Source: an uncultured Maritimibacter sp.
Lineage (GTDB): Bacteria; Pseudomonadota; Alphaproteobacteria; Rhodobacterales; Rhodobacteraceae
Assembly: GCA_913063035.1 (NCBI GenBank)
Contig: CAJXYS010000001.1
Coordinates: forward strand, 62,001 to 126,000
DNA length: 64,000 nt
Direction of reading: 5' to 3'
In this document: positions 25,177 to 54,042 of the stretch, one piece after another
Position numbering within the stretch: the stretch's first letter is position 1
How the letters are laid out: each line of letters begins with the position of its first letter
Program-made: the position numbers and the translations under genes
The notes under the pieces: model-generated
What the model saw: the letters and a program-made list of their open reading frames with translations, nothing else
Told to the model about the DNA's origin: nothing
Databases searched by the model: none

Positions 25177-25195
25177 GCGCGTCCCCATTTCGCTC

Positions 25196-25253
25196 GCCCG
25201 GGTCCAAGTGGGGGAAATATCCCCGCCGGAGGCATGATTCCGCCGCGCAGCGG
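25196..25253 (-). repeat. Interspersed intergenic repeat, copy A
   Basis: Read on the minus strand, this is a small hairpin GCCGC-TGC-GCGGC, then GGAATCATGCCTCCGGC, GGGGATATTT and CCACTTGGAC. The same order of elements, with a different but still paired stem, occurs at 53908-53968 on the plus strand. It sits between metK and trmB. Confidence 0.65.
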
Positions 25254-25255
25254 CC

Positions 25256-26413: not shown

Positions 26414-26460
26414 TGCTCCATTAAAAAGTCCCCGTCACGCCAGGAAGCCGTTGTGACGGG
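26414..26460 (-). ncRNA. SAM/SAH riboswitch controlling metK translation
   Basis: The minus strand carries the outer stem CCCGTCAC / GTGACGGG around the conserved CACAACGGCTTCCTGGCG core, then an A/T-rich linker and ATGGAGCA. This agrees with the SAM/SAH class described upstream of metK in Rhodobacterales, in which the core pairs with GGAGC in a pseudoknot. The GGAGC lies about 7-8 nt before the ATG, so ligand binding would hide the ribosome site. Confidence 0.93.
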
Positions 26461-26471
26461 CAATGCGACTT

Positions 26472-37032: not shown

Positions 37033-37107
37033 GGAAAACGCTCCTCGAACTCGTACTCAGAGCAGCGAGGATGCATGATTCCGGCGGCGTTGGCGCGCGA
37101 AATCGGG

Positions 37108-52512: not shown

Positions 52513-53727
52513 CTATCCGACCACGTTGAACGCCGGGCCGTAGGGATAGCCGGTGATGTTCTCGGCCCCGTCCGCGGTCACCACGAGGATGTCGTGCTCG
52601 CGGTAGCCGCCCGCGCCCGGCTGACCGTCCGGGATCGTAAGCATCGGCTCCATCGACACGACCATGCCGGGTTCCAGCACGGTGTCGATGTCCTCGCGCA
52701 GCTCGAGGCCGGCTTCGCGGCCGTAGTAATGGCTGAGAATCCCGAAGCTGTGGCCGTAGCCGAAGCTGCGATACCGCAGCAGATCGCGGTCGGCGAAGAA
52801 GGCGTTGATCTCGGCGGTGATGCCGGAACAGCTCGCCCCCGGCCGGATCAGCGAGATGCCGAGCTCGTGGGCCGCGACGTTGGCCTCCCAGATCTCGCGC
52901 GACGCCGGGTCGACCGCGCCGAGGAACATCGTGCGTTCCAGTGCCGTGTAGTAGCCCGAGATCATCGGAAAGGTATTGAGGCTCAGGATATCGCCCCGCG
53001 CGAGGGCGCGCCCGGTGACCGGGTTGTGCGCCCCGTCGGTGTTGAGACCCGACTGGAACCAGACCCAGGTGTCGCGGTACTCGGCCTCGGGAAAGCGACG
53101 TGCGATCTCGCGCTCCATCGCGTCGCGCCCGGCCATGGCGACGTCGATCTCGCGCGTGCCTTCGCGGACCGCCTCGCGGATCGCGTAGCCGCCGACATCG
53201 GCCACCGCGGCGCCCTGGCGGATCAGGTCGATCTCCGCGGGCGATTTGTGCATGCGCTGGCGCATGGTGGCCGGGGCGATGTCCACCGTCGCGGCCGGGG
53301 CAAGGAACGCCTGCAGCTTCCCGGACTGTTCCAGCGTGAGGTGATCGCCCTCGTAGCCGATCCGCCCGCCGGTGCCCGCGACCGACCGGACCGCGCGCCA
53401 GAAATTGTCGCGCGCCCAATCGGTATAGGTGATGTTGTCGCCGGCCGAGCGGCGCCAGGGCTGGCCCGCGTCGATCCCGGCCGAGATCGTCACGCAATCC
53501 GCCGGCGTGACCACGCAGGCATAGGGCCGCCCGAAGGCGCAGTAGAGAAAGCCGGCGTAATAGGCGACGTTCTGCATCGAGGTGAGAACCACGGCCGTCA
53601 CGCCCGCCTCGTCCATCGCCGCGCGCAGCCCGGCCAGGCGCGCGGCGTATTCTTCCGCCGCGAACGGCAGCGCGGCCTTCTCGCCGTTGTGGAAACGATA
53701 GAATTCCGGTCTCTGGGTATCTGTCAT
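52513..53727 (-). CDS. Creatinase (creatine amidinohydrolase)
   Basis: The 404-residue protein has the pita-bread fold of the M24 family and follows the Pseudomonas creatinase sequence closely through its length. Examples are FLYCAFGRPYACVVTPADC, WVWFQSGLNTDGAHNPVTG, FGYGHSFGILSHYYGREAG, VLEPGMVVSMEPMLTIP and NITGYPYGPAFNVV. Creatinase hydrolyses creatine to sarcosine and urea without a metal. The match is far better than to Xaa-Pro aminopeptidases of the same fold. GGAGGTCG precedes the ATG. It is divergent from the ABC permease operon. No creatininase or sarcosine oxidase gene is in the window. Confidence 0.93.
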   Translation of the reverse strand: MTDTQRPEFYRFHNGEKAALPFAAEEYAARLAGLRAAMDEAGVTAVVLTSMQNVAYYAGFLYCAFGRPYACVVTPADCVTISAGIDAGQPWRRSAGDNITYTDWARDNFWRAVRSVAGTGGRIGYEGDHLTLEQSGKLQAFLAPAATVDIAPATMRQRMHKSPAEIDLIRQGAAVADVGGYAIREAVREGTREIDVAMAGRDAMEREIARRFPEAEYRDTWVWFQSGLNTDGAHNPVTGRALARGDILSLNTFPMISGYYTALERTMFLGAVDPASREIWEANVAAHELGISLIRPGASCSGITAEINAFFADRDLLRYRSFGYGHSFGILSHYYGREAGLELREDIDTVLEPGMVVSMEPMLTIPDGQPGAGGYREHDILVVTADGAENITGYPYGPAFNVVG

Positions 53728-54042
53728 CTTCGACCTCCGTCCACGGGGGCCGGTGCGCCCGGACCCCTCGAAAGGTCCCGGCGTGCAGGACGACAGCGGG
53801 CGATCCGCCCGCGAGCGCGGGGCCACGTGCCGGCCCCGGTGGCGACGCCATCGCCACGGCTCGGCGCCGTTATCGGATGGAATCACCGGCCTGGCAAGCC
53901 CGGCGCGCCCTGCGGGCGCGGATTTCATGCGCGCCGCGCAGGGGATATTTGGACCACTTGGACGGGCCGGTCGCGCTTCGGGCTGGACCCCCGTGCAGGC
54001 CGCGCCTAGGCTCGGGCCGGACCAGGGAGGACCCTCGCCGGA
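53728..54042. other. Divergent intergenic region between creatinase and the ABC permease operon
   Basis: This 315-nt stretch has no supported gene. It must hold the promoters of creatinase (minus) and of the dppB-like gene (plus), but I see no clear -35/-10 pair or operator. It contains copy B of the interspersed repeat at 53908-53968, and GGGAGGA lies about 10 nt before the permease ATG. Confidence 0.6.
53908..53968 (+). repeat. Interspersed intergenic repeat, copy B
   Basis: A hairpin CGCGCCC-TGC-GGGCGCG is followed by GATTTCATGC, GCGCCGCGCA, GGGGATATTT and CCACTTGGAC. The order of elements matches copy A at 25196-25253. The stem sequence differs between copies but remains paired, and the TGC loop is the same. 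Confidence 0.65.

Follow-up and report, generated by a model that had tools for sequence, protein, structure and literature searches.

The window, the whole 64,000-nucleotide stretch of DNA analyzed here, contains a short hairpin-bearing repeat at two places, which raises the question of whether this repeat is a mobile element of the REP type, a transcript-end signal or a protein-binding site. All three options had been offered by the first-pass annotation. The transcript-end element best fits the positions found, the RAYT-type REP is contradicted by gene content, and the protein-binding site is retained because the tail of the element is genome-specific. From sequence comparison, the reading that we tentatively favor, at somewhat less than even confidence, is a dispersed gene-3'-end element specific to Rhodobacteraceae-type bacteria, which would protect or attenuate message ends in either orientation and would be homogenized within genomes independently of RAYT.

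Window copies and anatomy of the element

Direct reading at both sites confirmed two copies with a common order of parts. Copy 1 was read at 25202-25254 on the minus strand as GCCGC-TGC-GCGGC, ATCATGC, GGGGATATTT, CCACTTGGAC, and sequence, model match and gene calls delimit the whole element at 25203..25254. It comprises a variable hairpin, GCCGC-TGC-GCGGC (25242..25254, minus; sequence, fold and covariation), the core common to the family, GCCTCCGGCGGGGATATTT (25215..25233, minus; genome and family pattern searches), and a genome-specific tail, CCACTTGGA (25203..25211, minus; tail pattern search). Copy 2, which has a minor core type, was read at 53904-53963 on the plus strand as CGCGCCC-TGC-GGGCGCG, TTTCATGC, GGGGATATTT, CCACTTGGAC, and sequence, pattern search and gene calls delimit the whole element at 53904..53962. 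Its variable hairpin CGCGCCC-TGC-GGGCGCG (53904..53920, plus) is read from the sequence only, the computed fold pairing otherwise; its core consists of the alternative palindrome GCGC-GCC-GCGC followed by AGGGGATATTT (53929..53950, plus; sequence and pattern search), and its genome-specific tail is again CCACTTGGA (53954..53962, plus; tail pattern search). The segment first described as a GC-rich spacer is itself able to pair, as GCC-TCC-GGC in copy 1 and GCGC-GCC-GCGC in copy 2 when read from the sequence, although minimum-energy folds favor other pairings. Two matches to the composite TCATGC-N5-15-GGNGATATTT lie in the window, compared with 0.00 in 100 shuffles. By itself, GGGGATATTT (at most one mismatch) is not enriched there (2 versus 0.68 expected; 14 of 100 shuffles reach 2).

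Copy 1 starts 1 base past the metK stop and leaves 14 bases to the trmB start. The entire gap between that stop and that start measures only 67 bases (window 25189-25255) and is mostly occupied by this copy. A SAM/SAH riboswitch (RF01727, 61.8 bits) lies immediately upstream of metK at 26414-26462 (minus), and the same genome contains a second, divergent MetK-like match with 38% identity (G000:C33:14669-15799). The claim that all sites are intergenic agrees with our own gene calls, with copy 2 being atypical in that it is flanked by divergent gene starts at 53727 (minus) and 54043 (plus). A supposed third piece at 37067-37081 (minus) carries neither core nor tail and has no model match listed; it is attributed to chance, the 12 occurrences of ATCATGC in the window being close to the 10.5 expected. 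Around the two copies, a terminator scan (stem followed at once by at least five T in eight) and a scan for sigma-70 type promoters each returned nothing. The only Rfam match in the window is SAM-SAH, and four loci searched with an E-value cutoff of 1 gave no match for the element itself.

Further copies proved to be numerous, whereas the first-pass annotation had named a scarcity of them as grounds for refutation. The pattern CATGC-N4-16-GGGGATATTT has 26 matches in the source genome (3.22 Mb) and none for the reversed control, and a covariance model built from these 26 copies, the genome scan that had been proposed as a check, located 75 places in that genome at E<=0.001. From 5' to 3', the element consists of a stop codon, an optional hairpin, the core GCCTCCGGCGGG-RRTATTT, three free bases and a tail of about 10 bases. 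The usual core is GCCTCCGGC followed by GGGGATATTT; GCCTCCGGC can form a 3-bp stem with the loop TCC, and other GC palindromes replace it in some copies. The extended pattern ATATTT-NNN-CCACTTGGA occurs 66 times in the source genome at up to two mismatches and 65 times at up to one, with no control match. Among the 75 places, 64 carry the tail CCACTTGGA (at most one mismatch) and 11 carry GGAACGRTGAA.

The proposal that the paired stems are under selection holds in part. In the 26-copy alignment, 12 hairpin cells are changed on both sides compared with 3.4 (sd 1.4) after shuffling, a value that 0 of 500 shuffles reach, and 83.7% of the cells are paired versus 70.6% in shuffles; two weaker measures are unremarkable, with both-side-change pairs being reached by 29 and further pair types by 145 of 500 shuffles. 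Watson-Crick stems of at least 6 are present in 40 of the 75 copies, compared with 10.0 (sd 2.8) in dinucleotide shuffles. Once G-T pairs are admitted and the threshold is lowered to 5, only a small excess is left (65 versus 54.6), in keeping with the GC-rich DNA. Whole-element fold energies are moderately low (mean z -1.02 sense and -1.26 antisense, with 21 and 30 of the 75 copies, respectively, below -1.5), and the minimum-energy folds of individual copies are unlike one another.

Distribution across genomes and tail dialects

The core GCCTCCGGCGGGRRTATTT (at most one mismatch) was found in 28 of 61 genomes, namely in 28 of the 37 from the same family, the source genome included, and in none of the 24 from other families of the class; the reversed core gave no match throughout the 61. 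Copy numbers among these genomes reach 85. In the named collection, the core occurs in at least 118 stretches, whose titles refer to Rhodobacteraceae, Paracoccaceae, Rhodobacterales or genera that we take to belong there. Five titles among the matches listed are vaguer or discordant, one of them a MAG titled Hyphomicrobiales. Plasmid searches for the element found little.

At the metK site, 41 genomes were searched and 30 loci read, and only the source genome has the exact core directly past the stop, so metK was rejected as a conserved site of the element. A degenerate sense copy lies 97 bases on in locus L220 and an antisense copy 65 bases on in L227 (both at up to three mismatches), and several metK ends show a looser hairpin-RTATTT-GCAAAGATGAAG form. 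Past metK, loci L220, L221, L225, L230, L242 and L243 contain an RTATTT-like piece followed by a GCAAAGATGAAG-like tail, without the CCTCCGGC core. The counts given here probably underestimate the size of the family. Three gene ends carry the element on the same side in both the source genome and genome G001, and comparison with named contigs adds a few; by a rough estimate this sharing is near chance. General conservation of positions was rejected on account of these few common gene ends, and the sequence comparison indicates that element positions mostly turn over.

The tail largely follows the genome. In G001, tail and core variant are linked in 64 of 65 copies, with one exception: GATATTT goes with CCAAGAAGT in 35 copies, and AGTATTT or AATATTT with GGAAANTCGAA in 29. 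In G087, all 50 listed GATATTT copies carry ACACAT or ACGCAT, and all 12 listed AGTATTT or AATATTT copies carry CAAYAAGAA. Seven further genomes were sampled through 40 stretches taken from earlier matches, so that each sample is small: the tail is CCATTTGGAA in 9 of 12 copies in G003 and CCAATTCGAA in 5 of 11 in G019, takes CCACCGTGAA and AACGAAGAAG forms in G010 and CCAAAGCAG forms in G012, and is CCAATGTGAA or CCAAGATGAA in G022, while two copies in G016 have two unlike tails and three copies read in G036 have three. As judged from these sequences, the rule is that each genome spells the tail in its own way, in one to three classes; G036 is an exception in the copies read. A near-constant core next to a largely genome-bound tail points to shared control or to copying, of a kind for which no description was found.

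Gene ends, inverted pairs and the dnaN-recF junction

By our own gene calls, 70 of the 75 copies in the source genome adjoin a gene 3' end; position relative to gene ends was among the checks suggested earlier. Convergent genes flank 42 of the copies, 15 are tandem in sense and 13 tandem in antisense orientation, 5 are divergent, and none lies inside called genes. The gene caller was our own, had the window as its training set and gave noisy calls on mixed genomes; among the 126 matches listed for named contigs, 11 were set aside for their closeness to a locus end, and the 115 classified ones included 14 in divergent settings, 25 in ORFs and 1 without a neighbor, part of these ORF and divergent calls being necessarily caller noise. 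In G001, 24 of 65 copies lacked one or both neighbors. On the sense side of the source-genome copies, a stop precedes RTATTT by no more than 50 bases in 33 of 57 cases, 16 of them at 31-36 bases; on the opposite side, an opposing stop lies 22-31 bases beyond RTATTT in 23 of 55. In 8 of the 42 convergent cases, the two stops, both measured to RTATTT, are 60-68 bases apart, a gap of one element.

The source genome contains 18 close pairs formed by 36 copies, 17 facing, 1 back to back and none on the same strand. With pairs merged, the 57 sites divide into 30 convergent, 24 tandem and 3 divergent. The convergent excess is significant per site (P=1.7e-4) and for the 39 single copies, 18 of them convergent (P=0.007), against 22 convergent, 50 tandem and 28 divergent gaps of at least 50 bases along a 250-kb part of the annotated Ruegeria pomeroyi megaplasmid, a background taken from another genome than the one tested. 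That megaplasmid was chosen as gene-pair background because it has only 2 core copies (at most two mismatches) in the 250 of its 492 kb that were read. Per-copy values are smaller (7e-6 against the megaplasmid and 1e-9 against the window, a background without any convergent gap of at least 40 bases); pair members are not independent, and the per-site values are relied on. The listed copies of G087 include 12 close inverted pairs, and in 8 of these the 3-base spacers are identical, compared with 0.82 expected; 0 of 10,000 random pairings reach 8, and the spacer is otherwise variable. Selection for a long hairpin, or arm-to-arm correction, would leave such a trace. Facing partners in the source genome often have, by eye, unlike spacers. 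Ten of the 12 listed close pairs in G087 are back to back, with tails outward; the 17 facing pairs of the source genome have their tails inward.

One junction recurs. A search for the dnaN 3' end with the core pattern matched 30 of 295 family genomes, 27 of them at true dnaN ends and 3 not; the detailed search counted family genomes, and the summary of 27 of 295 counts genera. Family genomes have about 21 copies on average, from which, by our own arithmetic, fewer than 2 would be expected by chance. The antisense arrangement was found in 0 of 295 with a stricter pattern; its equivalent core would admit 24 of the 27 sense cases (23 were used in the test). RRTATTT, which the sense pattern did not require, is present in 24 of the 27, and the recF start lies 20-27 bases past TATTT in 19 of the 25 cases with a start found, so that a separate promoter between the element and recF would have little space. 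The tails in loci L304-L332, often GAAGG or GATGAAGG, overlie the expected recF ribosome-binding site, and where sense copies are compact, part of that site may be supplied by the element itself. The gap between stop and core is merely 4-12 bases at 14 of the 27 dnaN ends; for this reason the hairpin is regarded, on comparative grounds, as an optional part. Core and tail are the parts under constraint.

The DnaN proteins of the 27 genomes are 83-94% identical. Five junctions (L312, L318, L323, L325 and L329) share a similar TCGCG-type hairpin between stop and core, in which the stems differ yet pair and the tails differ; this points to descent from one placed element, while the recurrence at dnaN-recF may also reflect independent re-insertion in the same orientation. 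An exact 9-mer of the dnaN tail recurs in 96 of 216 further copies from its own genome versus 2 of 1110 from the remaining five genomes, in a test that covered the source genome and five of eight genomes chosen partly for unusual dnaN tails and that left out G312, G177 and G285 (3 of 37 rows listed for the last). The matching tail is one of several classes in G087, G068 and G119, and G211 has two other copies only. Given this sharing within genomes, the seemingly ancient dnaN copy follows the spelling of its genome.

A proposed gene-end RNA structure and competing explanations

A hairpin function by itself explains neither the invariant core nor the genome-specific tail. In the favored reading of an orientation-neutral gene-end element, the transcribed copy would form a GC-rich barrier behind the stop codon, which would attenuate downstream cistrons such as recF after dnaN or trmB after metK and, once Rho termination or an endonuclease has cut the transcript short, would set or protect the 3' end of the upstream message. 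Because it would be hairpin-based, this barrier would act in both orientations. The moderately low fold energies, the negative terminator scan at both window copies, the turnover of positions and the divergent setting of copy 2 count against this reading. Homogenization would be a separate process that needs no RAYT transposase: copying or conversion within the genome, or a partner molecule common to all copies, would keep them alike. If a trans factor reads the tail, the dialects would represent its specificity; otherwise, they would represent copying lineages. Intercistronic stabilizing hairpins, such as those of the Rhodobacter puf operon and the malEF REP, offer a parallel in that an upstream cistron is followed by a hairpin and then by a presumably less needed downstream cistron, as at dnaN-recF and metK-trmB. 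Unlike those hairpins, the element is a dispersed family with a common core and tail and also occurs between convergent genes.

Among the alternatives, a REPIN-like selfish population is a serious but doubtful one. Here, singlets and inverted doublets would be copied within each genome by some enzyme, the dialects would be lineage-specific subfamilies, and gene ends would tolerate copies because they are free of coding sequence and promoters. The likeness to REP/REPIN sequences is considerable: these are short extragenic repeats with hairpins, genome-specific subfamilies and tens of copies (Bertels and Rainey 2011, PMC3116915, in the portions of text available), and the element is likewise extragenic and dispersed at tens to hundreds of copies (75 places, none overlapping genes), with inverted doublets able to form a long hairpin (the 18 close pairs here and the 12 among listed copies in G087). 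The genome-bound linkage of core variant and tail, as in G001, and the few sites shared with that genome agree with this alternative. So does the lack of a clear orientation bias in tandem contexts, with 52 sense versus 45 antisense (P=0.54) among the matches listed for the source genome, G001 and named contigs, pair members included, and 11 versus 9 among the single tandem copies of the source genome. Against it, no Y1/RAYT gene (Pfam PF01797) was found in the source genome or in 26 of the 28 core carriers, several of them drafts, in a search whose E. coli control matched; the two carriers with matches were G007 and G015, and the four richest carriers had none. A RAYT-driven REP was therefore rejected on gene content. 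According to the available portions of PMC3116915 and PMC8049555, REPINs are defined by RAYTs, so on this point the element falls outside them despite its similar doublets, hairpins and genome-specific families. It further differs in its core, hardly altered across the whole family, its abutment on stop codons, its sense-only recurrence at dnaN (27 versus 0) and perhaps its singlets, which in REPINs would be decaying remnants, whereas the single copies at metK and dnaN retain both core and tail. Recent copying alone, moreover, would not leave varied hairpins next to identical tails.

An unlikely alternative is that a family-specific trans-acting factor, such as a roadblock terminator, a 3'-end factor or a nucleoid protein, binds the element as DNA or RNA at gene ends, reading core and tail, and that the tail dialect co-evolves with it. 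Tails repeated inside genomes and different between them, the dnaN copy included, would be expected of such a partner, and orientation-independent function agrees with the tandem counts. However, single genomes hold two or three tail classes, G036 even three unlike tails, and gene conversion or copying could produce the same pattern. We likewise give a low probability to the broader proposal of family-wide gene-end recognition, in which a protein or RNA factor of Rhodobacteraceae-type bacteria reads the invariant core and the genome-specific tail. If it were true, a shift in the specificity of the factor would cause dozens of dispersed sites, including the old one at dnaN-recF, to change in concert, and these bacteria would possess a dedicated, sequence-specific and orientation-neutral 3'-end or termination system with lineage dialects.

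Processing by RNase E on the sense strand, at AU-rich, single-stranded AUAUUU or AGUAUUU behind an intercistronic hairpin, is very unlikely. The sense, compact copies at dnaN-recF and metK-trmB would suit it, and in Rhodobacter sphaeroides AU is enriched at RNase E sites (PMC6238624, in the portions available); it would require the sense orientation, however, whereas antisense copies are about as common in the tandem counts above, and it leaves the tail unexplained. No motif is described at PNPase-dependent 3' ends in the available portions of a study of the same species (PMC7866481), and neither report mentions the element in the text covered. Ordinary intrinsic terminators that resemble one another through composition are hardly plausible: GC-rich hairpins at gene 3' ends and inverted pairs between convergent genes are shared features, but the scan found no U-tract terminator at the two window copies, and a 19-base core common to genera, absent from the reversed control, as well as a conserved primary sequence and tail, sets the element apart. 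Least plausible of all is a DNA uptake sequence like those of Neisseriaceae, which reportedly combine a constant core, lineage dialects and inverted pairs at gene ends, and which the element resembles in these features and in occurring in both orientations; with 75 copies in 3.22 Mb, or about one every 43 kb, it is far sparser than the roughly one per kb in Neisseria, besides being absent from called genes, longer and structured.

No description of the element was found in the searched literature, outside of which most subscription journals fall, and the available main text of a recent REP survey (PMC12306157) contains no mention of Rhodobacter, Roseobacter, Ruegeria or Paracoccus. The element itself offers two openings. 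The first concerns a family of major marine and model phototrophic bacteria whose message ends are, to our knowledge, little mapped: a near-invariant core behind dnaN in many genera, behind metK here and behind dozens of further genes provides a defined object for the question of how their messages end. The second is the tail, which differs even at one conserved junction and thus represents concerted change within genomes among very short dispersed sequences, with no known mobilizing enzyme; its pattern makes copying, conversion and co-evolution with a partner testable against one another.
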